In this document: positions 11,315 to 46,205 of the stretch, piece after piece
Numbering within the stretch: position 1 is the stretch's first letter
Layout of the letters: each line of letters opens with the position of its first letter
Origin: Bacillota bacterium
Lineage (GTDB): Bacteria > Bacillota > Sulfobacillia > Sulfobacillales > JAIMBI01
Length of the DNA stretch: 51,055 nt
Assembly: GCA_021818685.1 (NCBI GenBank)
Contig: JAKATP010000007.1
Span: 1 to 51,055 of the forward strand
Direction of reading: 5' to 3'
Notes under the pieces: model-generated
Database searches by the model: none
Told to the model about the DNA's origin: nothing
The model's input: only the letters and a program-made list of their open reading frames with translations
Position numbers and translations under genes: made by a program

Positions 11315-11417
11315 CCGAGGTGGCCGCGTCCAGGGTGGTCTGAAAGGCGTACCGTGCTTGGTCGCATCATCGCTCGGTGTGCATCGTCGCTCCTCAATAT
11401 CGTATCGGGAGGTTGGC

Positions 11418-16107: not shown

Positions 16108-16214
16108 CGCGCGGATGGTCCCTGCTCGAAATCGGAGCCAGTCGCGTGAGTCGAAAATCGTTCAGGATCGCTCAGCATTCGAGGAGAGTCGCGCGCGCGA
16201 GACAAGTCTGCAGC

Positions 16215-21243: not shown

Positions 21244-21279
21244 GACTTAATCCAACTCGTGAAGGCTGGGGGTCGCGTC

Positions 21280-24200
21280 ATGGACCGGCACTATTGGCAG
21301 GGTCTCGATTTCTGGGTGGAGGCGCTTTCCACCTGGGCCGTCCTCGACGAGGTCCTGGTGACCGAGGGGGAACTCGAGGTCTTAGACGAGGGCGGGACCT
21401 CCCGACAGAGGGGATGGATACCGGGAGATGGCTGGGGGGCCGAGGAGGAGGCGGTGGCCGCGCGGTTGTCGGCCCGCGTCCCATTTTTGTGGGACCGCCC
21501 CCGCATCGTGCTGGACCTGGACGGCGAGGCCCTGCTACGCGTCGAGGGGCGGGCGGTGCTCGGAGTCAATCCCACCCACCGGTTTGTGGACCTGACCGAC
21601 AAGGCCAGCCGAGAACCGGTGGCGCTGGTGCTCGAACTCTCGCGCGTGGGGGTGATGGGGCGGCGGTTCGATGATCCGCGCATTCGCCGGGTCGCCCTGC
21701 AGCGCATCGACCCCACTATCGCCGCCGCCGCCCTCGACCTCGAGGTCTTGGCCGAGTGGGGACGTCATCCCTTAACGCCGCCGTCTCACCGCGAGGAGGT
21801 ACAGACGCGCCTCAGGGCGGCGCTCGCTCCCGTCACCGGCCTGCCCGCCGATCTGGACGCCTGGGAGGGCTGGCTGCGGCGCACGGGCGGCGGCGCCGAC
21901 GATGAGGCGCTCTACCAGGCCATCATCAAAAGGCGGGGGCCGCCGGTGGACGGCCTTCGGGCGCTGGAGACCCGCGTGCGCACCCGAGCGGCCCACGACA
22001 CTGCCGGACGGCTCCTGGCGCTCCGGCGATGGATGGCGGAGCGCTATCCGAAGAGCCCCGGGCAGCTGCTCGCCGTGGGACACGCGCATATTGACTGGGC
22101 GTGGCTCTGGCGCGTGCGGGATACCCGGGCTAAGGTGGTGCGGACAGTCGCGAGCCAGCTCACCCTGTTGGAACGCTTTCCCGAGTGGGTGTACGGCATG
22201 TCGAGCCCGATGATGTGGCAGGCGCTGGATGAAGACGAGCCGGAGGTGGCCGCCCGGGCCACCCGGTTCGCGCGCGCAGGGCGCATCGAGCCTCTAGGCG
22301 CCTTCTGGGTGGAGGCCGACGGGCAGCTCCCGCAGGCCGGTGCCTACCTTCGCCATCTCCAGTACACGCTGCAGGCGTTTAAAGCGCGGGCGGGGGATGT
22401 CGCTCCACTCGCGTTCCTGCCTGACACATTCGGATTTGCCGCGCCGCTACCGACGCTCCTGGCCGCGGCCGGCGTGAGGCTCTTTCTCACCACCAAGATT
22501 AACTGGAACGATACCACCGTGTTTCCGTACAAGGACTTTTGGTGGGTGGGTCCGGACGGAAGCCGTGTTCAGGCCCATATCTTCGGCCGCTCGTCCTGGG
22601 GGTACAACGGGCTCGCCACGCTCGACAACATCCGGGAGGCCTGGAACCGCTACGAGGAGGAAGGCGGACGGCGCGAGGTTCTGTACACGTTCGGCCTCGG
22701 AGATGGCGGCGGCGGTCCCGACCCGCATCAGATCGAGCGCCTCCTGCGCTACCGGGATCTGCCGGATATGCCGGCCATCCGATTCGGTCGTCCGGAGTCG
22801 CTCATGGTCCGCGATGACGACGACCTACCTGTCTATCGCGGGGAGCTGTATCTCGAGTTCCACCGGGGTATCTTCACGACCCAGACCCGCGTGAAGCGGG
22901 AGACGCGACGGCTCGAGTCACGGCTCATGGCCGTGGAAGCGTGGGACGCTTGGCTCGATCGGGTGGGGAGCATCGCTTGGCAAGACGCCTGGACCACACT
23001 GCTGGCCACCCATTTCCACGACATCCTCCCCGGTTCCTCGATTGGCGCCGTGTATCGCGACTGGGAGGTTGACCACACGGCCGTGGAGGCGGTGACCGAC
23101 GGGGGGGTTTCCGCGACGGCGGCCTACTTCCAAGATGCCTGGGCCGATGCCGGGGACGGACTCCTGGTGTTGAATCCCTCCGACGTGCGTGCGCCGGCGG
23201 GCCTGCACGCAATCATGACGGAGGGCGATGTCGACCTGGTCGTCGAGGGCGAGGTGGTCTCGGGCCAGCGCACCCATGATGGCGCCCTCCTGTTCCGGCT
23301 GCCGGAGATACCGGCCCTTGGAGCCGCGTCCTTCGCCCTGCGGCCGGGCGCTGCGCTGCGCGTGACGGCCCCGCGGCAGGAAGCCCTGGTGGAAGTGGGG
23401 CACCACCACGGCACCTGCATCCTCGGGCCGGAGGGGATCCGCTCGCTCACGTTTGAGGGTCGGGAGCTCCTCGAGGGACCGGCCGGTGTCCGCACGTTCT
23501 ACAATCACCCCGCCGTCTTTGACGCGTGGGAAATTGAGGCGGCTTACCGGGATCACTCCGCTCCGCTCACCCACAGCCCGCCCGTGGTGGTGGAGGAGGG
23601 GCCGCTGCGCACCGTCGTGCGCCTCCAGCACGCCGTGGGGGCGTCGTCGATCACCGAGCTGGTGGCGGTCGACCGGACCTCCGGGCAGGTGTCCAGTGCC
23701 CTCACGGCGGTCGTCCACGATCGGCACCTGCTCATCCGCTACGAAGTTCCCACAACCCTCCGGGCCGAGTACGCCGTGGCCGAGACGATCTTCGGCACGG
23801 TGCTGCGTCCGACCGTTCCCGCGGGGCCCCAAGACGCCGCCCGCTTTGAGTGGGCCGCGCACCGGTTCGTGGATTTGGCCGAGCCGCAGATGGGGCTCGC
23901 GCTGATAAACGATGGGCGTTACGGCCATTCCGTGGACGGGGGGCGGCTCGGGCTCACGGTGTCGACCGCTCCGCTGTACCCCGATCCGGATGCCGACGTC
24001 ACGCCGGCTCCGCTGCGGGTGCTCTTGATGCCGCACGAGGGCGACTTCCGGCGGGGAGGCGTCCTGGCGGCCGCGCACGCATTCAGCCTGCCGGTCGAGG
24101 TGCAGGTGGCGCAGGTGCGCGGGTCCAAGCGAGTATGCCCGCTCGAGGGGCTTCCGGACAACGTGGAGATCCTGGGCTTCAAGCGCTCCCAGGACGGCCT

Positions 24201-24423
24201 CGCCTACATGCTCTATCTAGGCGAAGTCTACGGCCAGTCCGTGCAGACCGCCATCCGACTGCCGTTTTCCGTCAAGGCGGCGGCGCGCGCGGACCTCGTG
24301 ACCGAAGCCCCGCGGACGGACGCGGCGGGGGTGGAGATGACGGATGACCGACAGGTCATCCGGGTGGCTTTCGCACCGCGAAGCCTCGCGATCCTGCGGG
24401 TGGAGCCCGACCGCCGAGCCTAG
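21280..24423 (+). CDS. Alpha-mannosidase, glycoside hydrolase family 38
   Basis: A 1047-residue GH38 enzyme, full length for the cytosolic bacterial type. An N-terminal helical/beta region of about 260 residues leads to the catalytic (beta/alpha)7 barrel with GHAHIDWAWLW (zinc His and Asp near 269-271), WVEADGQLP, the nucleophile Asp in LPDTFGF (about 381), and the zinc-site motif THFHDILPGSSI near 576. Middle three-helix and C-terminal beta-sandwich domains follow. It removes alpha-linked mannose and needs a divalent metal. No signal peptide. ATG 21280 follows a GGGGG stretch; GTG 21259 in the same frame has no ribosome binding site. It sits at the end of the mannosyltransferase-like gene group, suggesting glycan turnover. 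Confidence 0.9.
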   Translation: MDRHYWQGLDFWVEALSTWAVLDEVLVTEGELEVLDEGGTSRQRGWIPGDGWGAEEEAVAARLSARVPFLWDRPRIVLDLDGEALLRVEGRAVLGVNPTHRFVDLTDKASREPVALVLELSRVGVMGRRFDDPRIRRVALQRIDPTIAAAALDLEVLAEWGRHPLTPPSHREEVQTRLRAALAPVTGLPADLDAWEGWLRRTGGGADDEALYQAIIKRRGPPVDGLRALETRVRTRAAHDTAGRLLALRRWMAERYPKSPGQLLAVGHAHIDWAWLWRVRDTRAKVVRTVASQLTLLERFPEWVYGMSSPMMWQALDEDEPEVAARATRFARAGRIEPLGAFWVEADGQLPQAGAYLRHLQYTLQAFKARAGDVAPLAFLPDTFGFAAPLPTLLAAAGVRLFLTTKINWNDTTVFPYKDFWWVGPDGSRVQAHIFGRSSWGYNGLATLDNIREAWNRYEEEGGRREVLYTFGLGDGGGGPDPHQIERLLRYRDLPDMPAIRFGRPESLMVRDDDDLPVYRGELYLEFHRGIFTTQTRVKRETRRLESRLMAVEAWDAWLDRVGSIAWQDAWTTLLATHFHDILPGSSIGAVYRDWEVDHTAVEAVTDGGVSATAAYFQDAWADAGDGLLVLNPSDVRAPAGLHAIMTEGDVDLVVEGEVVSGQRTHDGALLFRLPEIPALGAASFALRPGAALRVTAPRQEALVEVGHHHGTCILGPEGIRSLTFEGRELLEGPAGVRTFYNHPAVFDAWEIEAAYRDHSAPLTHSPPVVVEEGPLRTVVRLQHAVGASSITELVAVDRTSGQVSSALTAVVHDRHLLIRYEVPTTLRAEYAVAETIFGTVLRPTVPAGPQDAARFEWAAHRFVDLAEPQMGLALINDGRYGHSVDGGRLGLTVSTAPLYPDPDADVTPAPLRVLLMPHEGDFRRGGVLAAAHAFSLPVEVQVAQVRGSKRVCPLEGLPDNVEILGFKRSQDGLAYMLYLGEVYGQSVQTAIRLPFSVKAAARADLVTEAPRTDAAGVEMTDDRQVIRVAFAPRSLAILRVEPDRRA

Positions 24424-26407: not shown

Positions 26408-27553
26408 ATGAACATCGCGCAGGTAACCGCCACCTTTCCGCCCTACCGGGCCGGCACCGGGACGGTCGTCTGGCATATGGCGCGGGCGCTTTCCGCACGA
26501 GGGCACCAGGTGACCGTCTTTACGCCGACGACGAGAGCCACGCCCCCAGAACCGGCGGGCGCGGGGATGTATGCCGTCGAGCCGCTGACGGCGCGCATGC
26601 GCTACGGCAATGCGGCGCTCGTGAAGGGATTTGAATCCCGCCTACGGGCCTTTGACGTCGTGCATCTCCACTATCCCTTCATCGGCGGTGCCGAGGCCAT
26701 GGCCTGGAGCGCCCGGCGGGGCGCGTATCCGCTCGTGCTCACGTACCATAACCGCCTGAAGGCTCAAGCAGGCATACGGCGGCCGCTCTTCTCGCTCTAC
26801 TCACACCTTATGGAGCCTCATATCCTGAAGGGTGCGACCATTCTTGTCACCGTCAACCAGGATTATCGCGAGACGGAGCTTGATCGATGGGACGATGTGC
26901 GGGTCGTGCCGCACGGGGTGGATCCGGCCCTGTTCGTGCCCCACGACCGGCGGCAGGCGCGACAGGCGCTCGGGCTCCGGATGGGAGATCGAGTGGCGCT
27001 CTTCGTCGGGGCTCTGGATGAGGCCCATCGTTTTAAAAATGTCGATGGCCTCCTCCGGGCGCTTGCCCTGCTGGAAACGCCGGTCACACTCCTGATTGTC
27101 GGCGGCGGGGACCGGCTTGGTGCGCTCCGGGACCTGGCCCGGAGCCTCGGCATGGACAAGCGGGTGATATTTGTCGGCCCCTGTGCGCAGGACGCGCTGC
27201 CGGCCATTTACAGCGCGGCCGATGTGACGGTGCTGCCGTCCGTCGACATCGAATCCTTCGGGCTGGTCCTGATTGAGTCGATGGCGTGCGGCACACCCGT
27301 TGTGGCCACCGCTCTGCCCGGCGTGCGCACGGTGGTGGGCGATGGAGGCTGGCTCGTACCGCCGGGTGACGACCGCGCCTTGAGCCAGGGTCTGGAGGCC
27401 GTGTTCTCGCTGCCCCGAGCGGAGCTGCGCGCCCTGGGCAAAATCGCGGGCCAGCGGATCCGGCAGCAAATGACCTGGGACCGCGTGGCCGTGCAGATGG
27501 AGGCGATTTACGAAGAGGCGATGGCGCGAATGGCGGGGCGCGGTGCCAAATAA
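26408..27553 (+). CDS. GT4 glycosyltransferase (glycan locus GT-1)
   Basis: A 381-residue GT-B retaining glycosyltransferase. The N-terminal acceptor domain opens with AQVTATFPPYRAGTGTVVWHMARAL, the usual glycine-rich loop and helix of GT4. The C-terminal donor domain has FVGALDEAHRFKNVDGLLRAL, and the EX7E motif is in SVDIESFGLVLIESMACGTP. This is the PimA/mannosyltransferase-like class; the donor is not certain. GGGGAGG precedes the ATG by eight bases. It is the first rightward gene of the glycan locus and lies 191 bases before the atypical response regulator. Confidence 0.88.
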   Translation: MNIAQVTATFPPYRAGTGTVVWHMARALSARGHQVTVFTPTTRATPPEPAGAGMYAVEPLTARMRYGNAALVKGFESRLRAFDVVHLHYPFIGGAEAMAWSARRGAYPLVLTYHNRLKAQAGIRRPLFSLYSHLMEPHILKGATILVTVNQDYRETELDRWDDVRVVPHGVDPALFVPHDRRQARQALGLRMGDRVALFVGALDEAHRFKNVDGLLRALALLETPVTLLIVGGGDRLGALRDLARSLGMDKRVIFVGPCAQDALPAIYSAADVTVLPSVDIESFGLVLIESMACGTPVVATALPGVRTVVGDGGWLVPPGDDRALSQGLEAVFSLPRAELRALGKIAGQRIRQQMTWDRVAVQMEAIYEEAMARMAGRGAK

Positions 27554-28464: not shown

Positions 28465-29052
28465 ATGGTGACGGTGGTCGAAACCGTGCGATCGGTCCCC
28501 AGGGGTTTCGGAGAACGTCAGTCCGTCGTTTGGGGACTCATCCTGGACCGCGTGTTTGCGGACGCCGCGGGCTCTGACGTCGGTACGCTCCGAATCATCA
28601 TGCCGGAGGGGCTGTTCTCTGAGGCCGTGAGCTTGCGCCGTGAGCTCGTGGCCTCCGTGCCGGGCCGCCGGGCGGCCGTGGCTTGGCTCGTCGCGGGTGT
28701 TTCGCGTTCACTGGAGGCGGAACGGACGTATACGCTGATGACCTGGACCAAGTGGGTACAGGCGGGGCGACACGGACACGGGGGAGCGAATCCCGGCCCG
28801 GGAAGGCGAGCCGGAACAGCGCCGGACATGTGGTTCGTGTACCCCTGGGACACCTGGGTTCTTGGTGGGCTGATGCGGCTTTACGGCCGTCTCGGACGCC
28901 CTGACTGGCAGGATCGGGCCTTATTCAGCCTCCGTGCCCGGCTCGTGCGCTCATCCGCCACGCCGTGTGCCTACGTGTTGTGGGCCCAGGACAGCCCGCC
29001 CGCGCAGGAGTTCGGTCACGGCTCCGAAGATGGCTTCACCGACAGCTCATAG
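28465..29052 (+). CDS. Hypothetical protein
   Basis: A 195-residue protein of no family I recognise, starting nine bases after the regulator's stop and so probably in its transcript. Third codon positions are GC-rich like those of real genes here. Two notable stretches are TYTLMTWTKWVQ (about 88-99) and an aromatic-rich segment MWFVYPWDTWVLGGLMRLYGR (about 121 onward), which could be a membrane-surface or single membrane helix; a Gly/Pro-rich basic linker separates them. There is no signal peptide. Its last 37 bases overlap the converging acyltransferase gene, which weakens confidence in the exact C-terminus. Confidence 0.5.
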   Translation: MVTVVETVRSVPRGFGERQSVVWGLILDRVFADAAGSDVGTLRIIMPEGLFSEAVSLRRELVASVPGRRAAVAWLVAGVSRSLEAERTYTLMTWTKWVQAGRHGHGGANPGPGRRAGTAPDMWFVYPWDTWVLGGLMRLYGRLGRPDWQDRALFSLRARLVRSSATPCAYVLWAQDSPPAQEFGHGSEDGFTDSS

Positions 29053-29987
29053 GCGTCGTGCACGTGGGAGCCTGCGCCCAGGCTCCGCTTGTAGCGATAG
29101 AGTCCGGCGTTCAGTTCCTGCCCGTCATCGGTGTTGGAATTTCCGAAGTCAACATACCAGCATCCGGAGGCGGTCGCCATGGCAATGGTGTCCTCGAAGA
29201 GGAGGTCGAGGGCCGACACCTCGCGGGCGACCGGATCGGCGGCGCTGTATTGGGCCCGCACGACGGGTGGAAAGATGAACAGGACCAGACCCGCGACCAC
29301 GCGACCGTCGAGCTTGGCGACGCGGCATTGCAAGGCGGCCGGAAGTCTCACGGCCAGGCCTTCGATCTCCTGGAGTGTGTGGGTGGGTCGCGCGCCGAAT
29401 CGTTCCGCTAGCTGACGCTCCAGAATTCGCCAGACATCCGGGAGATAGGCAAGCCCGTCGGCCAGAGTGACGGAGGCCCGCGCGGCCCGCCGGAGGCCGG
29501 CACGGCGATTTCGGGATAGGGGCAGACGGGCCCGGGTGTCGATGGTGGCGCACAGGTCCGTACGCCACCGCCGGGCCCGGAGACGGAAAAGGGCGTAGAG
29601 GTCGTCCTGATAGGGGACGGTGTGATAGATGAGAGGCACGGTGCGGTAGCGGAGCACCTGATAGCCGAGTTCCGCGTAGTGGGCCGCAATCCTCGTTAAG
29701 GCGTCGACAGCCGATGACCCGGTGAGGCCCCCTGATTGGATAAGGCCCCCGAAGGGGGAGCCGGGATGACTGACCACCCGGTCCGGGTGGTCAGTGTCCT
29801 GCGCGGCCGGAAACACTCCCTGCCATTGCCGCTCGTCGTCCTGGATCACGACCGAGCGGTCGAGGAAGCGCGCTCCATGATAGTTCAAAAAGTTTCGCGT
29901 GTGAAACGGCGTCCCATTCCAGGACCCGGCGACGAACGTCTCCCATTGCGCTTCATCGCGTTCTTCAAACGGACGGACGGTTAACAT
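29016..29987 (-). CDS. GNAT acyltransferase, BioF2/FemAB-like
   Basis: A 323-residue protein resembling the BioF2-like GNAT group (Acetyltransf_6), found in exopolysaccharide loci and related to the FemAB peptidoglycan transferases. The N-terminal half has FHTRNFLNYHG and SPFGGLI; the C-terminal GNAT half has AKLDGRVVAGLVLF and the signature YVDFGNSNTDDG with LYRYKRSLGAG. It probably acylates or aminoacylates a sugar, such as an amino sugar made by the locus (inference). ATG 29987 follows GGGAGG by eight bases; an upstream extension to 30056 has no such site. A plausible promoter lies at 30029-30056. It overlaps the convergent hypothetical gene by 37 bases. Confidence 0.75.
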   Translation of the reverse strand: MLTVRPFEERDEAQWETFVAGSWNGTPFHTRNFLNYHGARFLDRSVVIQDDERQWQGVFPAAQDTDHPDRVVSHPGSPFGGLIQSGGLTGSSAVDALTRIAAHYAELGYQVLRYRTVPLIYHTVPYQDDLYALFRLRARRWRTDLCATIDTRARLPLSRNRRAGLRRAARASVTLADGLAYLPDVWRILERQLAERFGARPTHTLQEIEGLAVRLPAALQCRVAKLDGRVVAGLVLFIFPPVVRAQYSAADPVAREVSALDLLFEDTIAMATASGCWYVDFGNSNTDDGQELNAGLYRYKRSLGAGSHVHDAYELSVKPSSEP

Positions 29988-30105: not shown

Positions 30106-31401
30106 GTGGCCGCATTCGAGTCCGGGACGTCTTCAGTCGCCCGACGGCTCGGCAAGCTGGACGCCTGGCTGGAGACCATGCGTCAGGAGGCAGGGTATGC
30201 GGGACCGGTCGCCCATTGGTGGGGTTCGACCTATCAATACGCCGGACCGGGCCTTGACTGGAGGTACCAAGGGTTGCTGGCCGGCTATGGCCTCCTGGCC
30301 GCGCATACCGGTCAACGAAAGTGGCTTGGCCGCACCAACCTGTGTGCCCTGCACCTCATACGGGGGCAATCCCTCGATGGCAGTTACCCCCAGTCTCGCT
30401 TCGAGGCCAATCCGGGCACCCTGGGAACCCCCCATGAAGCGGCGGCGGCCCATGGGCTGTTGCTGGCGGCCGATGTCGTATCGCCCAGAGAGGCTGCTGT
30501 CGCGAGCGCCGCGCGGTGTCTGGACCACCTCCTCATCCGGTTCTGGGACCCAATAGGCGCCGGTAGCTTTAACGACGGACTCAACACGAGGGGCCGGGTG
30601 CCCAACAAACTCGCGACGATGGCGGAAGCACTCATGGCGTGCGCGGAGGGAGCGGCCGACACCGGTTACCTAAAGTTTGCGCGTACCGCTCTGGACGACA
30701 TCCTGCGATTTCAGGTATCCAAGGGACCCTTGGCGGGTGCTGTCCATCAGTGGTCTCCGGACACCTACGTCGGGGACGGCCGCTTCTTCCCCTACTACAA
30801 CGCTCGCTGCGTGCCCGCCCTGTTGAAGGGAGCCGTGGTCTATGGGACTGAGCGCTACCGAGAAGGGGCCGAGTTAATCCTAGACTTTTTGACCCGCGTC
30901 CTGAATCAGGACGGCACCTGGCCGCAACTTGTCTACGCAGGCGGCCATCGCGTTGAGTACCCCCACTGGGTCGCTCCGACCGCGGATATGCTTCTCGCGT
31001 ATAAGCAGGCCGGTCGAGCCTTCCCTCCCGGTGTCCTCGCAAGGCTTTGGCAAGGGGCGCTGGCCACCGGCGCTTATAGGACGGCCGATGGCTTCGGGTC
31101 CCGTTACAAGGCTCGAGCCGGACGCCGCCTCGCCGACTACCGCGACGTCACCGCGGTCGTCGGCTGGAATGACAAGGTTCTTCGCCTGGCCGCGGAGCTG
31201 GCACCGGACCAGGGGGCGATCCCGGATGAGCCTTTCGAACCCCTGGAACTGGTGGTCAGCGTCGGAACGGACATCGCCATCTGGAAGGAGACCGCCGACC
31301 GCATCACGATGACGCGGGCTGCTCGACCGCGAGATGTTCTCTTCGACTGGGCCAAACGGGATGTGTGGGCCAAGGTGCACGACGTCCGGCTTCTCGCGTG
31401 A
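30106..31401 (+). CDS. Unknown soluble protein, possible alpha/alpha-toroid (glycosidase or cyclase-like) fold
   Basis: A 431-residue protein without signal peptide or membrane helix. Regularly spaced helical repeats, with small residues and aromatic pairs such as WRYQGLLAGYGLLAAHTG, NKLATMAEALMACAEGA and YPHWVAPTADMLLAYKQAGR, resemble the six-hairpin (alpha/alpha)6 toroid of many glycoside hydrolases, epimerases and prenyl cyclases. I cannot align it to a named family. The last 70 residues (LELVVSVGTDIAIW onward) look like a separate beta-rich domain. GTG 30106 follows GGGAGGGG. Its stop overlaps the next gene as GTGA, so it is the first member of a coupled three-gene cassette. Confidence 0.6.
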   Translation: MAAFESGTSSVARRLGKLDAWLETMRQEAGYAGPVAHWWGSTYQYAGPGLDWRYQGLLAGYGLLAAHTGQRKWLGRTNLCALHLIRGQSLDGSYPQSRFEANPGTLGTPHEAAAAHGLLLAADVVSPREAAVASAARCLDHLLIRFWDPIGAGSFNDGLNTRGRVPNKLATMAEALMACAEGAADTGYLKFARTALDDILRFQVSKGPLAGAVHQWSPDTYVGDGRFFPYYNARCVPALLKGAVVYGTERYREGAELILDFLTRVLNQDGTWPQLVYAGGHRVEYPHWVAPTADMLLAYKQAGRAFPPGVLARLWQGALATGAYRTADGFGSRYKARAGRRLADYRDVTAVVGWNDKVLRLAAELAPDQGAIPDEPFEPLELVVSVGTDIAIWKETADRITMTRAARPRDVLFDWAKRDVWAKVHDVRLLA

Positions 31402-33782
31402 GGGGGCGAAGGCCGGGACCCTTCCGCCGGAGCCTGCTAGGACTGGGGGCGCTTATAGCCTGCGTTCTGAGTGGTCCCGTGATACAGGCTCAGTCCCAAC
31501 CGGCTCCGCTACGCGTGGCAGTCCAGTACGAGACACAATCGGGCGCTTCCCTGCAGACGCTCCTGCGCGGAGGACGCGGGCGCGGTGCCCTGGTCTATTA
31601 TCTCGCCGGGCGGGGACCCGCCCATCCCGCCCTGATCGTTCTGCTCGACAACGGGCCCGCGGGAGTCGTGGCCGAGGTGTATCAGCCGCCGAAGGGGAAA
31701 ACCGCGGTCAACATCCATCACCTTCCCCCGGTTCCCACGATCAGGATGGTGGCGGTGGGGGGGTGGTGGGTACGGCACGGCATCGATAACTACAATCTCG
31801 ACACCACCGTGTTCGACCCTCTCCCCGGTATGGTGGCCGCCCTCTATCGGAGGGACGTACGTCCGGGTCAGCCCATCTATTATATTGAGACACGCGCGAG
31901 CCGCACGGGGACGCCCACGTGGGAAGCCGACTGGCTTTTGAAGAAGCTGCCGGGCTCTACCTATCCGAGCTTTGGCTTTACGGAGAGCCGGTGTGCCATG
32001 CACTGGATCCCCGAGCGGAGCACCTCTCCGGCCTGGCCCTACGTGGTGGCGCTCAGTGGGCTCGGTGGCGGCCATGGCGTGCTCCGGCTCCCCATTGTGG
32101 TGGACTGGCGTCGTGCCCGGATCTACCGGTATCAAGAGTTTCTTGGGGTTCACAACCAAATGTGCGCGTACGCGTTTAATTCGAATGCCGCCGTGCCTCT
32201 GCGAGGAACCGGCACGCCTGACTTTGAGAGCCCTTGGGGAACCTACAATCTGGCATCACGCAACACCGGTTATCCGAATCTGATTGTGCACACGTTCTAC
32301 AATTTTGCGGCCGATCCGACGGCCGCGCTGCCGCCCGGAATGGCGGGCAGCAGGATCTTCACCCCGCCCCAGGAAGATATCCGCTACTCCTGGGCGGATC
32401 ACGCTGGCGACCTCCTCTTTAACTACAAAGTTGATCTCTACGGCCAGTACGGCTACGCCCGGGCAACCCGCTTGGGGAGCCTGCCCTTGCGTGTTTACGC
32501 CCCAACCTACGCGCAATGGCCAGCGTGGGTGATGGCGAGGCCGTGGCCGGTGGCCGCGTTCGTGCAACCTCAATTTGATAACCAGAAGACCAGTGAGGGT
32601 ATTTATACATGGAACGCGAGCGCCGTCGGGACTCGTTATACCTACGGATTGTCTACCAACCCGAGCCTGCGCGCCTTTTCCACCATCACGACGGGCTATC
32701 GGGGCGAAATCCGAGCGGGGGCGGCCCTCGGCGTCCGCCTGTATGCGAGTCCGATCGACGGACGACTTCACCTGCTAAATGCCCGGGCGGGCATCTGGAA
32801 CCTGGGCGGGGGCTGGGATCTCCTGGAGCGAAACCTGAATCATGGGCTCTACTTGGATGAATGGGAACGTGTGTACCATCCTCTGCCGGCGCCTCGTCGG
32901 CTTCGGGGGGTGACGCCGCCCCGGGGGGTGAGCGCGTCAAGCCTGGGAGCTCCGGCGATGGACGTGGAAAGCCGCCTATTGGCGCTCCCGCAGGGCGTGG
33001 TGTTAACCGCCGACCAGACGGGCGTCACCTGGTTGCGCACCTCCTACTCGCCGAGTGCCATGGAGCTCGTCCCACCGACCAATCAGTCCACCTGGCGGCG
33101 TTTCACCCGGCGGGCTGCGCCCTTTATCACCGGAAAGAGTCCCTTCAATTTACGCTCGTGGACCGCCTCCTGGAACGGGAGCCGGGTCGAGCTTCCGGGC
33201 GCACGCCTGTCTGTCGTGTTCGTCGGTGTCCGGACCTTCGCGGTATTGGTGAGACAGCCGCCGGGGGCGCATCCTGTGCGCCTGCCGGGAGTGCGCCAGA
33301 GGGTGGGTGCGGGCTTATGGATCGTGCGGGCAGGGCCACAGGGGTTCACGGCCACACGGGTCCGGGCAGGAGGGGTGGCGATGACCGTCCGGCTGCTCGG
33401 CGACCGCCGGGGCACCATCTTGGTGGGCGTGACTCTCAAAAATCATGGCCCCGCCACGTGGCTCGGCACGGTAGGTCTCGCCATCGGGCACAGGAGCGAG
33501 ACACGAGGTCCCGTCATCCTCGCCAGCGGTGCGATCCAAACGGAGTGGCTCCCCGTGCGGGTCGGTCGGACGGCGGCGTCGGTCTCGGTCCGGGTGTTCG
33601 TGGATAAGCGCGTGGCGTGGCGACGACGACTGCTCGTGCCAGGGGCTGACACCGGCCGAGCGCCCGGTTTAATGGTGCGGATGAGCCTGGCCACGACGCC
33701 GAGTGCCGTCGTGGCCGTGGGGGCGGCGATCGCAACGCTCGCCAGCGTCTCCATCATATGGCGGCGGCGCGTTACGTCATGA
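31398..33782 (+). CDS. Large secreted, C-terminally membrane-anchored protein of unknown function
   Basis: A 794-residue protein. A signal peptide is clear: basic MRGRRPGPFRR, a hydrophobic core to about residue 30, then a VIQAQ cleavage region. The bulk (about 35-765) is extracytoplasmic, rich in Tyr, Trp, Gly and Pro, with many short beta-strand-like segments. Residues about 665-745 look like a CARDB or Ig-type domain (VTLKNHGPATWLGTV). A C-terminal helix (about 770-788) followed by WRRRVTS anchors it. I recognise no enzyme motif. The GTG start overlaps the previous stop (GTGA) and the end overlaps the next start (ATGA). Roles such as glycan binding, modification or sensing are speculative. 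Confidence 0.65.
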   Translation: MRGRRPGPFRRSLLGLGALIACVLSGPVIQAQSQPAPLRVAVQYETQSGASLQTLLRGGRGRGALVYYLAGRGPAHPALIVLLDNGPAGVVAEVYQPPKGKTAVNIHHLPPVPTIRMVAVGGWWVRHGIDNYNLDTTVFDPLPGMVAALYRRDVRPGQPIYYIETRASRTGTPTWEADWLLKKLPGSTYPSFGFTESRCAMHWIPERSTSPAWPYVVALSGLGGGHGVLRLPIVVDWRRARIYRYQEFLGVHNQMCAYAFNSNAAVPLRGTGTPDFESPWGTYNLASRNTGYPNLIVHTFYNFAADPTAALPPGMAGSRIFTPPQEDIRYSWADHAGDLLFNYKVDLYGQYGYARATRLGSLPLRVYAPTYAQWPAWVMARPWPVAAFVQPQFDNQKTSEGIYTWNASAVGTRYTYGLSTNPSLRAFSTITTGYRGEIRAGAALGVRLYASPIDGRLHLLNARAGIWNLGGGWDLLERNLNHGLYLDEWERVYHPLPAPRRLRGVTPPRGVSASSLGAPAMDVESRLLALPQGVVLTADQTGVTWLRTSYSPSAMELVPPTNQSTWRRFTRRAAPFITGKSPFNLRSWTASWNGSRVELPGARLSVVFVGVRTFAVLVRQPPGAHPVRLPGVRQRVGAGLWIVRAGPQGFTATRVRAGGVAMTVRLLGDRRGTILVGVTLKNHGPATWLGTVGLAIGHRSETRGPVILASGAIQTEWLPVRVGRTAASVSVRVFVDKRVAWRRRLLVPGADTGRAPGLMVRMSLATTPSAVVAVGAAIATLASVSIIWRRRVTS

Positions 33783-35446
33783 ACAAGAATGGACAGGATG
33801 GACAGCTTGCCAAGCTTCGACGTCAAATGGACGCTCTCTTGCCGGCGCTGGTCACGGTGGGGCTTTTGTATGCGGCGTATTTTGTCTGGCGCTACGGCGG
33901 CCTGTGGACCGAGAATGACTCCGCCGTGTTTGCGAAAGTCATTCAGGAAACCATTCACGCGCGTTCGGTTCTGTTCCCCGGCCAGTACTCCCATGGCTTT
34001 GGCTACCCCGACTGGGTGAGTGTCCTGGCGCTGTCCACGGGGATTCCCGTCCCCATTCTCTCGGCGTATGTCATGCCGTTTTTGGGCGTGATTTTAATGG
34101 TCATCGGCACCTACCCCGCGTTCTCGGCCCTCACCGGCCGTCGTGGCGTAGGCGCTCTTGGCGTGCTCCTGGTCCTGGCGGTACCAGAAGTCATGTTTAC
34201 CGTCTTGCGCGGGAATCACGAAAAGATGAACGTGTTCCTCATGTCCGGCGCCCTCTACGCCCTCTTGAACGTCGTCCGCAGTTCCGCGACCCGCCAGTTG
34301 GCCCTGTGGATCGGCGTGTTTTGCCTGTGTACGTTTCTCAACGTGGCCGCCAACGACTATTTCGGTGTCAGCTTTGCCGCCGCCTGCACCTTGATGACAG
34401 CGATCGCCTATACCCTGCATCGGCGATCGCGGGCCTCGACCGACCTCAAGACGGCGCGCCGCACCGTGTTTGCGAGGCTGGTGATCTTAACCTTGTGCGC
34501 CTGGATCATTGCGGGCTGGGTCATGGTCGTTCTGTTTCCGTCCAGTCTTTACGACCTGAGCCTGCTCGCCCAGGCCTTAGCTCAACTGCGGCGTTTGGTG
34601 TTGTTCCTGCACACGTCGAGCAACCCTTACGCCGGACTCCTGGAGCAGTGGGCCAACCCCGTGGTGGCACATCTCATGGCGATGTTCAGGTGGGTGATTT
34701 TAGGGGGGTCCGCCGCGTTTTGGAGTAGCCAGGTCTGGGCGGTGATCGTGAGACGGCGCACGCTTTCCGTTCGAAACATGGTGCTGCTGGGGCTTTATAC
34801 CGCGTTCAGTTTGCTGGTGGCCGTGGCCATCCCCATTGACTTTACGGGTCTCTCGGCCGGGTCAAATCTCGAGGTGCGCGACTACACGTATTTCGCCTTG
34901 TTTGCGGCGCCCCTGCTGGCCAGAGGCATGGCCAGGCTTGTCAGGCGGCGGCGACCGCGGGCGGGTCCGCGTGTGGACAGGGCCCAGGCCGCGGGATCGT
35001 GGGACAAAACCGGCCAGGTGAGGTCGAGAGCTGTGGGCACCGCCCTCCTGCTGCTCATCGGATGGGGGCTCCTCAAGACGACCCTCGACCCCGTGGTTTC
35101 GAACAATTGGATTTTCTATACGGAGAGCGAGCTCCAGGCGATCCAGACCTTCTATCAACGCAGTCGTCATCAACTCCTGTGGACGGGACCGGACAACCGG
35201 TTGGTGTTTGTGGGTGAGACGTGGGAGCCCCTGGGAGCCCATGGGAATCACGTAGAAGGATACGCGGCCGCGGCCGGCACCGATGATTACCTGGTGTCAC
35301 CCGCTATCCAGGCGGCCGTGCGCATTGCAGGCGTGTTGGCGCCCGGACCGGTCTCAGGGGGGGCCGGCGGAGGGGGGGATCGAATATACGATGACGGGGC
35401 GGCGCAAATCTACCGCCCCGAACCCGGGAGTGCTTTCGCTCCCTGA
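33779..35446 (+). CDS. Polytopic membrane protein, GT-C glycosyltransferase or polymerase-like
   Basis: A 555-residue protein with about ten membrane helices between residues 20 and 420. After helix 1 the first extracytoplasmic loop carries an acidic TENDSAVF motif, then a long periplasm-facing GQYSHGFGYPDW segment, which recalls GT-C glycosyltransferases whose catalytic acid sits in this loop. The last 130 residues (about 425-555) are extracytoplasmic with VFVGETWEPLGAHGNHVEGY. No exact family match comes to mind; a Wzy-type polymerase is an alternative. I chose ATG 33779, which forms an ATGA overlap with the previous stop; ATG 33758 in frame is possible. Third gene of the coupled cassette. 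Confidence 0.65.
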   Translation: MNKNGQDGQLAKLRRQMDALLPALVTVGLLYAAYFVWRYGGLWTENDSAVFAKVIQETIHARSVLFPGQYSHGFGYPDWVSVLALSTGIPVPILSAYVMPFLGVILMVIGTYPAFSALTGRRGVGALGVLLVLAVPEVMFTVLRGNHEKMNVFLMSGALYALLNVVRSSATRQLALWIGVFCLCTFLNVAANDYFGVSFAAACTLMTAIAYTLHRRSRASTDLKTARRTVFARLVILTLCAWIIAGWVMVVLFPSSLYDLSLLAQALAQLRRLVLFLHTSSNPYAGLLEQWANPVVAHLMAMFRWVILGGSAAFWSSQVWAVIVRRRTLSVRNMVLLGLYTAFSLLVAVAIPIDFTGLSAGSNLEVRDYTYFALFAAPLLARGMARLVRRRRPRAGPRVDRAQAAGSWDKTGQVRSRAVGTALLLLIGWGLLKTTLDPVVSNNWIFYTESELQAIQTFYQRSRHQLLWTGPDNRLVFVGETWEPLGAHGNHVEGYAAAAGTDDYLVSPAIQAAVRIAGVLAPGPVSGGAGGGGDRIYDDGAAQIYRPEPGSAFAP

Positions 35447-35500: not shown

Positions 35501-36349
35501 TTATGGGGGACTCGTGCCAGACCAGTACGCGATATAGACTTCACGCGTGGGGCTCCGACTCGTAACGGGTGACAGCCGAAGAGTCAGATGAACGCGGGCA
35601 GTTGCGCGCGTGGTGGGAAGACGGAGGCGGTGGGTCCAAGGTGTCTGCCGGCGTAGATGGAGCAGCACCGTCCACACCCGCCTCCCGTTGATGAACTCCT
35701 CCAACCGGTACCCGCTCGAGCCCGCCAAGACTACGTGCACCTCAACCCAGGCTCGGGTACCCCAGGGAATGGCGTAGGGGTATCCTTCGAGGTGCCCGCG
35801 GGCATCGGTGAGATAGAGGGCAGTGTGCGGCTTTAATGTGCTCGCTGCGATGACCGACGTGACTAGGGCGATGGCTATCAGGACGCCGACAAGCCCGAGG
35901 GCCGGGACCGCCGGCGGTCGTCGTCGTTTCACGGCCGGCTTTAAGGTCTGCCGGGAACGCCAGGCCGTGATCACCACTTCCCCTGTCACGACCGCGACCA
36001 GGCCGAGTACCACCCATCGCGCCGTGAGGGGCACGTGCCCGTACGCATACACCAGACCCAGTATGACCGTCACGGTCATACTCAGCAGGACGGCGATAAA
36101 CCAGCGGCCCGGCTCGGTCAAGCGATAACGCTCCTGAGGAATCCAGCTGGTGGCCAGGTAGCCGGGGCAGACGAGGACGGTCAGCAGGCCGGTGGCCCCA
36201 TGTAGGACGGCCATAAAACCGCTGCCCTGGGATGACACCAGGAGTACATCGACAATGCCCTGGGCCGCCACCGCTCCCCAAAGAGAAGGATGGCGACGCC
36301 GGTGCGGCTCGGGATCGGCCTGGGTGTCGGAGGTGAAACGAAGCTGCAA
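35501..36349 (-). CDS. DUF1616-like membrane protein
   Basis: A 282-residue protein with four predicted helices (about residues 25-45, 50-70, 85-105 and 110-130, plus one near 150-170) followed by a beta-rich extracytoplasmic domain to the end. The segment LLTVLVCPGYLATSWIPQERYRLTEPG with the next helix matches the DUF1616 pattern of a PGY turn followed by an E-R pair before a helix. Archaeal and bacterial members occur in glycosylation loci; function unknown to me. It follows the GT4 gene on the same strand by 36 bases, so it is likely in that operon, and it converges on the cassette above with 54 bases between stops. Confidence 0.55.
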   Translation of the reverse strand: MQLRFTSDTQADPEPHRRRHPSLWGAVAAQGIVDVLLVSSQGSGFMAVLHGATGLLTVLVCPGYLATSWIPQERYRLTEPGRWFIAVLLSMTVTVILGLVYAYGHVPLTARWVVLGLVAVVTGEVVITAWRSRQTLKPAVKRRRPPAVPALGLVGVLIAIALVTSVIAASTLKPHTALYLTDARGHLEGYPYAIPWGTRAWVEVHVVLAGSSGYRLEEFINGRRVWTVLLHLRRQTPWTHRLRLPTTRATARVHLTLRLSPVTSRSPTREVYIAYWSGTSPP

Positions 36350-36385: not shown

Positions 36386-37528
36386 TCAAGTCCGTGAGGT
36401 CGCCAGGACGTCTTCGTACACGGCCCATGTCCGCCGAGCGGCCGCTTCCCACCCGAATGTTAAGGCCCGGGGTCGCGCCCGAGCCTTTAGGCTCGCCCGC
36501 AGTTCATCCCGGTTCAGAACGGCCTTCATCGCCTGGTACAGCGCGTCGGGCTGGTGGGGATCGACCTGCAGGCCAGCGTCCCCCACGACTTCTGCCGGCG
36601 CCCCATAGCGCGACGTCACGACCGCAGCCCCACAGGCCATCGCCTCCACTAACGGTGAGCCGAAGCCCTCATCCAGCGAGGGGAACAAAAAAGCGGTCGT
36701 TCGCTGGTACAGATGGAGTAACTCACGAGCACTCACATGGCCCAGCAGATCGCAGTAACCGCCAATCCCGAGGGCACGGCACTGACGTTCGAGCCACGCC
36801 TTGCCCCCCTCACGCCATGTGCCGGCCATCTTGAGGCGCACCGTGGGACAGTCTTGATGAAGGCGGGCGAAGGCGGTCAGGGCAGCCCCGACATTTTTAT
36901 GGGGCTCCAAGGTGCCGACCATGAGGAAGTAAGGAGGTTCGGTTAGGGTGGCCGGGTCGGCCGGCCGGAAGCTGTCCGTATTGACACCCGGATAGATGAC
37001 GGTGATCTTCGATGGTTCGATGTGGAGTCTCTCGATCGCCTCTCGCTTGACGTGCTGACTCACGGCGATGATGGCCGTCGCACGCTGAAGCCTGCCCCAG
37101 TAAACCTGCCAACGCCATGCACTGAGACGGGCCGAGGGGCCAGGGGTGATGGACGGGGTGCGCTCTAACGGTATCAAGTCGTGCAAGGTGGCGACCGTCG
37201 GCACACCCGGGGTTAGAACCAAACCGTTGAAATCCGGGGCATGAAAAAGCGACGGCTGGCTCAGTCGGATAGCCCGGCGCAGAAACAGCTCGTTATAGAT
37301 CCAATAGACCTGGGCCGGACGATGTCCGCGGGTGCCGTAAACCGCGCGCGTCCGGATGTCCGCATCCACGCCGTCCAGTGGTCGCCGGGCGAGCGCGAAC
37401 ACGATTCGGTCTGGATCCATCGCCACGAGCGCTCGGCATAGATGTCGGACATACGTACCCACTCCACGAAAGCGGTGCTCGGATTGGAGCGGCGTGGCAT
37501 CGAGCAATATAACGTCGGGATATTCCAT
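36386..37528 (-). CDS. GT4 glycosyltransferase (glycan locus GT-2)
   Basis: A 380-residue GT-B retaining transferase of the WbaZ/mannosyltransferase-B-like group. Landmarks are FRGVGTYVRHLCRAL in the acceptor domain, LHDLIPL, the linker ITVIYPGVN, and the donor-site segments FLMVGTLEPHKNV and SLDEGFGSPLVEAMACG with the EX7E glutamates. ATG 37528 has no Shine-Dalgarno sequence, yet a TATCAT -10-like box ends eight bases before it, so the message may be leaderless. It is the first gene of a two-gene minus-strand operon with the DUF1616-like gene, and divergent from the GT2 gene at 37767. Confidence 0.87.
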   Translation of the reverse strand: MEYPDVILLDATPLQSEHRFRGVGTYVRHLCRALVAMDPDRIVFALARRPLDGVDADIRTRAVYGTRGHRPAQVYWIYNELFLRRAIRLSQPSLFHAPDFNGLVLTPGVPTVATLHDLIPLERTPSITPGPSARLSAWRWQVYWGRLQRATAIIAVSQHVKREAIERLHIEPSKITVIYPGVNTDSFRPADPATLTEPPYFLMVGTLEPHKNVGAALTAFARLHQDCPTVRLKMAGTWREGGKAWLERQCRALGIGGYCDLLGHVSARELLHLYQRTTAFLFPSLDEGFGSPLVEAMACGAAVVTSRYGAPAEVVGDAGLQVDPHQPDALYQAMKAVLNRDELRASLKARARPRALTFGWEAAARRTWAVYEDVLATSRT

Positions 37529-37766: not shown

Positions 37767-38885
37767 GTGAGGAGCATGTATGACGACGTGGGAGAGCCGA
37801 TCTTGAGTCTCGTGCTGGACGGTCTGCTCCTCGTGCTGGCCGGGCAGGCAGCGCTCGAGACGCACCGGTGGGTGTCCTGGGACCGGTCCCCGACCGTGAA
37901 GCATGCGCCGGCCAGACCAGGACCCGTCATCCAAGCGCCGCGCGTGAGCTTCTTGGTTCCCGCCTGGAATGCGGTCGGGGACGTCACGGACTTTGTAGAC
38001 GGGTTCCGGGCTCTAAGCTGGCCAGACAAGGAGCTCATCCTCTGCTGTGGGGGAGAGGATGGTACCGCCGACGTCGCCCGCCGTCTCGAAGGACCCGACG
38101 TCACGGTGCTGCTGCAAGGACGAGAGGAAGGCAAGCAGGGGGCACTCGCCAAGTGCTGGGCGGTGTCGACAGGCCAGCTTATCTACTTGACCGATATCGA
38201 CTGCCGCCCGACAGATCTCGTAGTCACCCGCCTTTTGGCTCCGTTGGCCGATGGTTCCGCCGACGTCACGACGGGCGGGACGCGAGCGTTGGACGCAGAC
38301 CTTCACGACGCGTTCGTCCGGTGTCGTGCGGCCATCGACGCTTGCGAGGTAGTGTCGGAGGGGACGGCGTGTCTCGGACTGAACGGGCGGAATGCCGCGC
38401 TTGTGCGAGGGGTGCTCGAGGCGGTGCAGGGCTTTTCGGCTCCTGCACCGAGCGGCACCGACTATACGTTGGCCCAAGAGATCCGACAGCGCGGTTACGT
38501 CATCCGCTACGTGTCGGAGGCCTTGATGCCGACCCGCTATGCCAAACGCGTACGCGACTACGTCCGCCAGCAACGAAGGTGGTTTCGGAACGTGTTCCGG
38601 CTGGGCCGGCGATATCATGTCGCGCCCGACGTTCGACGCACCGCGCTGACGCTGGCGTTAACCTACCTCGCAGTTGGGGGCTGTCTCGTCGGCCTTATCT
38701 GGGAGCACTGGATGCTGGTCCCCATAGTTCTCGTGGCGGTGCATGTAACGATAACGCGTCTCGGGTACCAGAAGCGGGCGTCCGTGGGCCTGCACCTATC
38801 CGGAACATGGATCCACATGGGGGCTGACCTCATCGCGGTGCTGGCGGCCAGCCTCGACCTCGTGAGCGGGGCAGACGCATGGTGA
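37767..38885 (+). CDS. Membrane-bound processive-type GT2 glycosyltransferase
   Basis: A 372-residue GT2 enzyme of the hyaluronan/cellulose/PNAG synthase class. An N-terminal helix (about 12-30) precedes the catalytic domain: VSFLVPAWNAVGDV, the metal motif YLTDIDCRP, the acceptor-site SGTDYTLAQEIRQRGY, and the processivity motif QQRRW near residue 270. Two C-terminal helices follow (about 292-330), then a third near 348-366. Such enzymes polymerise or add beta-linked sugars at the membrane. The start is uncertain: GTG 37767 has GGAG at a fair distance, whereas ATG 37776 has GAGGAG too close. The end overlaps the next gene by seven bases. Confidence 0.82.
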   Translation: MRSMYDDVGEPILSLVLDGLLLVLAGQAALETHRWVSWDRSPTVKHAPARPGPVIQAPRVSFLVPAWNAVGDVTDFVDGFRALSWPDKELILCCGGEDGTADVARRLEGPDVTVLLQGREEGKQGALAKCWAVSTGQLIYLTDIDCRPTDLVVTRLLAPLADGSADVTTGGTRALDADLHDAFVRCRAAIDACEVVSEGTACLGLNGRNAALVRGVLEAVQGFSAPAPSGTDYTLAQEIRQRGYVIRYVSEALMPTRYAKRVRDYVRQQRRWFRNVFRLGRRYHVAPDVRRTALTLALTYLAVGGCLVGLIWEHWMLVPIVLVAVHVTITRLGYQKRASVGLHLSGTWIHMGADLIAVLAASLDLVSGADAW

Positions 38886-40111
38886 CGCCGTCGGCACCCC
38901 CCATCGGCCTGGCCGTGTTTCGCGGCGCGGATGGTCCAGGGGGCATGGGAAGAATGGGACGAGAACTCCTGAGCCACTGGGCACCCAGTGATCTGGCGTG
39001 GCGTGAAGCCCGGATCCGGCGTGTGCGGGTCCCGCTCGCGGGATACATCCCGACGGGAACCATCATTCCGAGAGCGTGCGCTGTCGCTTATCTCCCGCAC
39101 ATTTGGGGCGCATCCGCTTTGGGCCGGATCAGGCTTCCAAGCGTGGTCACGGTGCATGATTTAGGTTGCATGGAATGCCCGGCCGACCGCGCGTCGGCCC
39201 CGCGGCCGTGGACGTGGGTGATGGAGCGAGAAGTTCGGGCCCTCGCCCATGCCTCGCGGCTGGTGGCCGTGTCCGACTTCACCCGCACACGCCTATTCGA
39301 GCATGTGCCCGGGCTTATTCCCGGCCGGGTATCGGTGATCCACCACGGAGTGAGCGACTCGCTGCTGGAGTCGGCGTCCGGCAACCGTGCGCGGAACCGC
39401 CGGGCGCTTACGGCCGCCATTCCCGGGGTCAGATCCCGTTCTCGTCTCATGGTGTACGTGGGCGACGAGGCCCCTCGGAAAAACATTCCCTTACTGTTGG
39501 AGACCCTGCGTTCACTGAAAGGACGCTATCCGACGCTGCAGCTCTTGAAGATTGGAACAGCGCTCACGGCTTCGGGCCGACAGCGCACCCTGAACCACAT
39601 GAAACGCTTGAGGCTCGGGCCAGGCCGCGACGTGATTTTCACCGAAACCATTCCAGACCCGCTGCTGGCGATTTGTTACCGCGCGAGCGATGTGTACGTG
39701 AGCGCCAGTCTCTATGAGGGATTTGGCCTCCCACCCCTCGAGGCCCTGGCGTCCGGCTTACCGGTGGTGGCGACGCGCCGAGGAGCTCACGTGGAGTTAT
39801 TGCGCCACAGGGCCATCCTGGTTGAGCCGGAGAGATCCGCCATGGTGGCGGCCGTCCGTTGCGAACTCGAGATGCCCTACCGCCCAAGGCGGGTGGACAG
39901 TCTCCGTGCGGAGATGGGGCTTTACCGTTGGAACCGGACGGCGGCGGCCTACACCGAGCTCTTTGTGAGCCTGGCGAGGCGCTCGGCGGGTTCTGGTCTG
40001 GGAGCGGCGGAAAGCCGCCAAACACACCGAGGAGGAGGGCGTTGTGGCACCGAAGGCATCGAGGGTCCCGAAGACCCCAACGGTACCGACGCAAGCGAGC
40101 CGGGCTTTTGA
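38879..40111 (+). CDS. GT4 glycosyltransferase (glycan locus GT-3)
   Basis: A 410-residue GT-B transferase. GGMGRMGRELLSHW in the acceptor domain, VTVHDLGCMECPADRA, LVAVSDFTRTRL, the linker VSVIHHGVSD, and the donor-site YVGDEAPRKNIPLLLETL and SLYEGFGLPPLEALASG (EX7E) are all in order. The catalytic domains end near residue 370. The remaining 40 residues are Gly/Asp/Ser-rich, low in complexity, and encoded in part by the first 68 bases of the methyltransferase gene, so they may reflect loss of an earlier stop. The ATG overlaps the previous gene by seven bases. Confidence 0.85.
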   Translation: MVTPSAPPIGLAVFRGADGPGGMGRMGRELLSHWAPSDLAWREARIRRVRVPLAGYIPTGTIIPRACAVAYLPHIWGASALGRIRLPSVVTVHDLGCMECPADRASAPRPWTWVMEREVRALAHASRLVAVSDFTRTRLFEHVPGLIPGRVSVIHHGVSDSLLESASGNRARNRRALTAAIPGVRSRSRLMVYVGDEAPRKNIPLLLETLRSLKGRYPTLQLLKIGTALTASGRQRTLNHMKRLRLGPGRDVIFTETIPDPLLAICYRASDVYVSASLYEGFGLPPLEALASGLPVVATRRGAHVELLRHRAILVEPERSAMVAAVRCELEMPYRPRRVDSLRAEMGLYRWNRTAAAYTELFVSLARRSAGSGLGAAESRQTHRGGGRCGTEGIEGPEDPNGTDASEPGF

Positions 40112-45685: not shown

Positions 45686-46141
45686 ATGAAGAAGTCGGTT
45701 GTGGAGACTACGGATCTGCCGTGGGCGGGCGGTGCCTACTCGCTTGCCATACGGTGCGGCCCCTTTATCTTTACCGCGGGCATGGGCCCGTTTGACGCCG
45801 CGGGACAGCTCATCGGAGCAAACGTGGAGGAGCAGACGCGGCAGGTCATGCAGAACCTGGAGGCCCTGTTGGCGATGTGCGGGCAGACGTGGGACGCCGT
45901 CATCAAATGCACCGTGCATCTGGCCGACATGGCACACGACTTTCGCGGATTCGACGCGGTGTACCGGGAGTACGTGCGGCCCCCATATCCGGTGCGCACG
46001 ACCGTGGGGTCGCGGACGAAGGGCGATATCCGGGTCGAAATCGATGTCGTCGCCCGCATATCTGACGAGGAGGGGAGCGGAAGTTCGGGGGAGTCGTTCA
46101 GCTACATCGTGCGGGATAGGCCCGTCAGACCGCCCGCGTGA
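45686..46141 (+). CDS. RidA/YjgF/YER057c family enamine/imine deaminase
   Basis: A 151-residue RidA-family protein. FIFTAGMGPFDAAGQLIG, VEEQTRQVMQNLEALL, KCTVHLADMAHDF, YREYVRPPYPVRTTV (with the carboxylate-binding Arg) and IRVEIDVVAR follow the family order. Members are homotrimeric and hydrolyse reactive enamines and imines released by PLP enzymes, or have specialised roles in sugar and amino acid pathways. A PLP aminotransferase lies two genes downstream, so a protective or pathway role there is plausible. The 20-residue Ser/Gly-rich C-terminal tail is unusual. GGAGGGACGGG precedes the ATG. Confidence 0.85.
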   Translation: MKKSVVETTDLPWAGGAYSLAIRCGPFIFTAGMGPFDAAGQLIGANVEEQTRQVMQNLEALLAMCGQTWDAVIKCTVHLADMAHDFRGFDAVYREYVRPPYPVRTTVGSRTKGDIRVEIDVVARISDEEGSGSSGESFSYIVRDRPVRPPA

Positions 46142-46205
46142 ACGGACCGCGGTGGGCTTTTTTGCCCTGACGGCTATTGAGGTCGCAAGGAGAGGAAGGC
46201 GGACC

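Follow-up and report, generated by a model that had tools for sequence, protein, structure and literature searches.

A predicted GT-C_A-type glycosyltransferase and its putative secreted partner in Wzx-linked loci of Sulfobacillales and Chloroflexota

The eukaryotic oligosaccharyltransferase STT3 works alongside ectodomain subunits that carry a single transmembrane (TM) helix. GT-C enzymes share a set of landmarks, namely an acidic residue in EL1, an acidic residue N-terminal to TM4 and an arginine before TM10, and in the literature these positions are occupied by active-site, acceptor-side and phosphate-binding residues (PMC7801869). Most of the bacterial GT-C_A families that have been listed use lipid-phosphate-monosaccharides (PMC10920833). 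Here we describe three adjacent genes, ORF1, ORF2 and ORF3, in a 51,055-nucleotide stretch of a Sulfobacillales genome (GCA_021818685.1, contig JAKATP010000007.1; hereafter ‘the window’). The gene set is real, conserved and, as far as we searched, undescribed, and it lies within a known kind of locus.

A conserved gene pair within a larger neighbourhood

The three genes form a single plus-strand run between a divergent FemAB/GNAT-like gene and a convergent DUF1616-like gene (Table 1). A preliminary description of this DNA had reported that the frames are joined by 4-base overlaps, and inspection of the frames confirms these: GTGA at 31398-31401 between ORF1 and ORF2, and ATGA at 33779-33782 between ORF2 and ORF3. 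Since in-frame alternative starts are available at 31365 for ORF2 and 33758 for ORF3, and a clear Shine-Dalgarno sequence is lacking at both overlapped starts, the exact 4-base overlaps hinge on which start is chosen. A pattern scan around the trio returned no convincing promoter or terminator. For each ORF there are homologues that align over most of the protein at ~22-52% identity, occur in the same gene order and extend to another phylum, and all three are therefore real coding genes. The same description had called the proteins unfamiliar, which agrees with our searches: the window proteins have zero matches in Pfam and NCBIfam (E up to 1) or among PDB sequences (E up to 10), and literature searches found no description of the genes.

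Table 1. Coordinates of the features discussed, in order along the window
Feature	Coordinates	Strand	Remarks
DUF4012 protein	4635-6539	-	
GH15-type glucoamylase/trehalase-like	11358-13256	+	near locus
922-aa membrane protein	13339-16107	-	
DUF4012 protein	16011-18083	+	
GT2	18192-19202	+	sequence resembles dolichol-phosphate-mannose synthase and ArnC; homologues present in many loci of relatives
GH38-type alpha-mannosidase	21259-24423	+	near locus
GT4 glycosyltransferase	26408-27553	+	in most relatives, homologues immediately precede ORF1
195-aa protein	28465-29052	+	upstream of ORF1
FemAB/GNAT-like acyltransferase	29016-29987	-	divergent from ORF1
ORF1	30106-31401	+	431 aa, open frame
ORF2	31398-33782	+	794 aa, open frame
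ORF3	33779-35446	+	555 aa, open frame
DUF1616-like membrane protein	35501-36349	-	in relatives, DUF1616 genes come after the ORF2/ORF3 pair
GT4 glycosyltransferase	36386-37528	-	conserved neighbour of ORF3
GT2 glycosyltransferase	37767-38885	+	counterpart of the GT2 between ORF1 and ORF2 in relatives
GT4 glycosyltransferase	38879-40111	+	part of locus
Wzx-type flippase	42925-44403	-	same Pfam family as the flippase domain fused to a Chloroflexota ORF2
FdtA-like isomerase domain	end of ORF 45699-46703	+	true gene start probably well downstream of 45699
DegT-type aminotransferase	46679-47860	+	follows FdtA-like domain
GT4 glycosyltransferase	47880-49019	+	homologues directly after ORF3 in Chloroflexota

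We gathered homologues from 61 related genomes and, with ORF3 as query, from 84,980 species genomes, giving 14 Sulfobacillales-type loci (those of S. thermotolerans Kr1 and one S. benefaciens MAG among them) and 8 loci from Chloroflexota; a 199-genome sample across the window’s phylum contained only one weak match besides the window itself. ORF2 and ORF3 are present in the identical 15 of the 61 related genomes, and ORF1 is present in 16, 12 of which are shared with the pair. Among 301 Chloroflexota genomes, counting strong matches only, ORF3 is found in 13, ORF2 in 12 (all inside the 13) and ORF1 in 10 (nine inside the 13). The hypergeometric P values for the ORF2/ORF3 pair are 1.4e-14 (61 related genomes) and 1.4e-20 (Chloroflexota), and that for ORF1 with ORF3 in Chloroflexota is 1.4e-13, all of them optimistic given that the calculation treats related genomes as independent. 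ORF2 and ORF3 lie next to each other in 13 of 15 loci from Sulfobacillales and, on our count, in 12 of the roughly 14 Chloroflexota loci that could be assessed, and their overlap is conserved, with 4 bases in six Chloroflexota loci (L080, L082, L085, L143, L145 and L146). The exceptions show that the pair is separable: the two genes lie about 2.6-4.4 kb apart and in opposite orientation in L052 and L055, and about 15 kb apart in genome G061, and G277 has ORF3 without ORF2. ORF1 is absent from three related genomes that have ORF2 and ORF3, and is thus not essential.

Could the adjacency be due to chance, the three genes being functionally unrelated? Gene overlaps are common in bacteria and ORF1 occurs without the pair in five genomes, but co-occurrence and adjacency are seen in two phyla, which makes this reading scarcely credible overall and, for ORF2 and ORF3, refuted in practice.

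The trio as such is not the conserved unit. The order is ORF1-GT2-ORF2-ORF3 in five Sulfobacillales loci (L049, L050, L051, L053 and L059), the same GT2 separates ORF1 from ORF2 in Chloroflexota L140 and L142, and L048 has GT2-ORF2-ORF3 with ORF1 absent. As the counterpart of this GT2 lies downstream of ORF3 in the window, the direct ORF1/ORF2 junction is a rearrangement, and the ORF1/ORF2 overlap was seen in this genome only, the GT2 intervening wherever relatives have the two genes near each other. The ‘three-gene cassette’ is one form, produced by local rearrangement, of a more extensive conserved neighbourhood, other members of which are GT4 genes, a DUF1616 gene, the GT2 resembling dolichol-phosphate-mannose synthase and ArnC (DPM/ArnC-like GT2) and a Wzx flippase; synteny of GT4, GT2, Wzx and DUF1616 genes with the pair is found in both phyla. 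The preliminary description is thus supported as to the kinds of protein, their topology and a shared role in a surface-polymer locus, the last by the polysaccharide genes around them, but not as to a three-gene unit: what is conserved is ORF2 with ORF3, and the usual neighbour of ORF1 is the GT2. The condition it set for its own refutation, that the three genes are never found together in other genomes, clearly does not hold. Its proposal that the genes are made together is well supported for ORF2 and ORF3, a tight pair with conserved adjacency and overlap; for ORF1 and ORF2 the arrangement is a local accident.

The ORF1-GT2-ORF2 order recalls a synthase-dependent, cellulose-like system, with the GT2 in the role of BcsA, ORF2 in that of BcsB and ORF1 in that of BcsZ, three architectural classes that stand side by side in the relatives. 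We nevertheless consider it very unlikely: the QxxRW motif is not conserved across the GT2 family, ORF1 has no signal peptide, BcsB is absent from the best 50 PDB folds for ORF2, and ORF2 accompanies ORF3 and Wzx, not the GT2.

The window holds a flippase together with several glycosyltransferases, as expected of a Wzx-linked locus, and the FdtA-like domain followed by a DegT aminotransferase suggests a 3-amino-3,6-dideoxyhexose in the glycan. In L053 and L059 a homologue of the FemAB/GNAT-like protein adjoins a DegT gene, and the protein may therefore acylate the amino sugar. Upstream of ORF1, relatives have an unnamed protein of ~170-250 aa in a slot similar to that of the window’s 195-aa protein, although a profile of the former did not detect the latter. 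Elsewhere in the window, the 922-aa protein combines an N-terminal multi-TM region, weakly similar to PMT-type GT-C enzymes, with a C-terminal PQQ-type beta-propeller, and can be read as joining a GT-C-like membrane part to a propeller on the outside. There are also two glycoside hydrolase-type genes (GH38 and GH15) and two DUF4012 proteins; L060, L062 and L064 likewise have a DUF4012 homologue, near an ORF1 homologue that stands alone (in L062, a PilZ-domain gene adjoins ORF1).

The three proteins

ORF3 has about ten TM-like segments by topology prediction. Its AlphaFold2 model, built from 22 sequences (mean pLDDT 81.7, pTM 0.83), has 16 PDB matches with E<1e-3 in Foldseek, all of them GT-C enzymes, in line with the GT-C likeness claimed for it earlier. 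The best match is STT3 (8agc, E 6.8e-8, TM 0.53), followed by AglB, ArnT, PglB and DPY19, and then by Pmt4, AftB/AftD and ALG9. The first outer loop of the model contains two helices (46-61 and 75-87), and a short outer domain ends the chain. D47, E148 and R367 are invariant in the 22 sequences, which span two phyla, and on the model they are located in EL1, immediately ahead of TM4 and immediately ahead of TM10, respectively; E148 belongs to an RGxHEK motif (144-149). Because both the fold and the landmark residues are those of GT-C_A, ORF3 is a predicted GT-C_A-type glycosyltransferase.

While the fold is known, the sequence family is new. No member of the family matches PF02516, the WWDxG motif is replaced by W-x3-D-x-R (STT3 controls L175/L176 have WWDFG, WADYG and WWDYG), and comparison of the ORF3 profile with three true Chloroflexota STT3 proteins was not significant, the sole aligned stretch placing LRGN of ORF3 beside LLGY of STT3; ORF3 is thus not a GT66 member. 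Nor does it belong with Wzy/WaaL (PF04932), there being no Wzy_C domain match. PMT_2 and related Pfam families match no member of the ORF3 family above chance, one member reaching E 0.017 with Mannosyl_trans4.

ORF2 had been described as secreted and anchored. This is supported both by hydrophobic segments at its N terminus (13-31) and C terminus (764-782) and by its model (pLDDT 77, pTM 0.73), which begins with a signal helix and continues through a large beta-rich ectodomain and an Ig-like domain to a C-terminal TM helix. The Ig/CARDB-like domain, at about 654-746, matches PDB 3idu and 2kl6 (E 3e-5 to 6e-5). When the model was compared with the PDB and a viral library by Foldseek, this end alone gave a confident match, whole-chain TM-scores by query length being 0.16 or less. 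The main ectodomain of about 600 residues has no recognised fold, may be a new one, and leaves ORF2 a ‘partner’ of ORF3 by association. In the alignment, E277, D454 and H458 of this ectodomain are invariant across phyla, which suggests a role that may go beyond that of a spacer. The ORF2 family has at least two diverged subtypes and ORF3 stays closer. In L052 and L055 (S. thermotolerans group) the inverted ORF2 is of a diverged subtype, possibly reflecting exchange of ORF2 with ORF3 kept.

Might ORF3 instead be a protein glycosyltransferase and ORF2 its main acceptor, a glycosylated surface protein? The best fold matches of ORF3 include the protein-modifying GT-C enzymes STT3, Pmt4 and DPY19, and ORF2 is a near-constant secreted companion. 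Against this, ORF3 lacks the STT3 acceptor motif, polysaccharide genes abound in the locus, and invariant residues in a well-predicted ectodomain suit a working domain better than a carrier; we regard the idea as improbable.

ORF1, thought earlier to be soluble and possibly a toroid, looks like a cytosolic alpha/alpha toroid on the basis of weak family matches. Topology prediction finds neither signal peptide nor TM segment. Nine of the 11 weak Pfam matches of ORF1 family members are to toroid families (best E 4.9e-5), individual homologues weakly matching GH127, GH76, PL10, LanC, C5-epimerase, AGE, GH47, PL2 and PcRGLX. Conserved motifs are HWW, DWRYEG, GTPHEA, NK and GW-x-DK; residues invariant in 19 sequences include H37, D51, H110, E111, N167, K168, R234, D347 and K357, and D157 and D356 are nearly so. 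GH127 identity was rejected: the 19 sequences have no invariant (catalytic) Cys, and the window protein does not match PF07944, although some homologues do so weakly.

A proposed role on the outer face of the membrane

We infer that the locus makes a surface polysaccharide. Our preferred reading, which we hold with a probability of roughly 0.57, is that this is a Wzx-linked locus in which ORF2 and ORF3 act on a lipid-carried glycan outside the membrane and ORF1 acts in the cytosol. GT4 and GT2 enzymes would build the lipid-carried glycan in the cytosol, where ORF1, beside a GT2, would modify a sugar or the glycan, and Wzx would flip the lipid-linked product. On the outer face, ORF3 would move a sugar from a polyprenyl-linked donor to the glycan, with D47 and E148 placed by position in the active site and R367 holding the carrier phosphate. 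ORF2, anchored by its single C-terminal helix, would be a dedicated partner of ORF3 and would bind the glycan, or the acceptor, as soon as the flippase has acted. Co-occurrence, adjacency and one gene fusion point to such a partnership: in Chloroflexota genome G347 (L142:9423-13400, +), a single case, one 1325 aa frame joins a Wzx flippase domain to an ORF2 homologue, residues 30-289 matching Polysacc_synt above the Pfam cut-off and 559-1317 matching the ORF2 family, and this connects ORF2 with the stage immediately following flipping. The donor would be a polyprenyl-phosphate sugar, for which the DPM/ArnC-like GT2 is a possible synthase, though this is only slightly favoured over en bloc transfer of a repeat unit.

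En bloc transfer is the essence of a possible, if doubtful, alternative: ORF3 and ORF2 would be a polymerase or ligase that joins the whole lipid-PP repeat unit to a chain or wall anchor, replacing an enzyme of the Wzy/WaaL type. The nearest folds of ORF3 (STT3, AglB and PglB) are en bloc oligosaccharyltransferases, the Wzx-ORF2 fusion fits, and so does the company that eukaryotic STT3 keeps. What keeps this alternative alive is that 12 genomes have Wzy_C genes but none of them close to the cassette; in the window genome, the Wzy_C matches are on other contigs. However, Wzy proteins are very diverse, and one could sit elsewhere or be missed; ORF3 has no significant sequence match to STT3, and the donor preference of most listed bacterial GT-C_A families (PMC10920833) also tells against it. 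More unlikely is its specific form, in which ORF2 and ORF3 would be the two subunits of an oligosaccharyltransferase-like enzyme from a new GT-C family; in place of Wzy, this enzyme would polymerise the Wzx-exported glycan or attach it, with ORF2 selecting the acceptor. If true, the polymerase reading would be of clear interest, as ORF3/ORF2 could then be the polymerase or ligase that is missing from surface-glycan loci in which no Wzy can be recognised.

The preferred reading, sugar transfer by ORF3 with ORF2 at its side, offers a testable function for three protein families named in no library searched, with the ORF3 family as a GT-C enzyme almost always accompanied by its own secreted partner. 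The shared gene set also connects the sugar coats of Sulfobacillales, which are acidophilic, with those of distant Chloroflexota, presumably through gene transfer.

Comparison with known systems

With GT66 (STT3, AglB and PglB), ORF3 shares the GT-C_A fold, acidic EL1/EL2 residues, the Arg before TM10 and an outer domain after the last TM; it differs in lacking PF02516 and WWDxG, in the far smaller size of that domain and in its place in a polysaccharide locus. The lipid-phosphate-sugar GT-C_A enzymes (ArnT of GT83, PMT of GT39, AftB and ALG9) are similar in fold and landmarks, and a DPM/ArnC-like synthase is present in the locus, yet ORF3 has no related Pfam match and nearly always comes with a secreted protein encoded by its own gene. 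Like Wzx/Wzy-dependent loci, the window has a GT4/GT2 set, Wzx and deoxyamino-sugar genes, whereas the cassette has no Wzy_C, and ORF2 and ORF3 are, as far as we searched, not known parts of such loci. The bcs operons (BcsA/BcsB/BcsZ) likewise bring together a GT2, an anchored beta-rich protein and a toroid, as the relatives do with the toroid-like ORF1; here, the putative toroid is predicted to be cytosolic, QxxRW is not conserved, no BcsB-like fold is found, and a GT-C enzyme and Wzx are present. Finally, the C-terminal domain of ORF2 resembles the CARDB/Ig-like domains of 3idu and 2kl6, to which its main ~600-residue ectodomain is unrelated.
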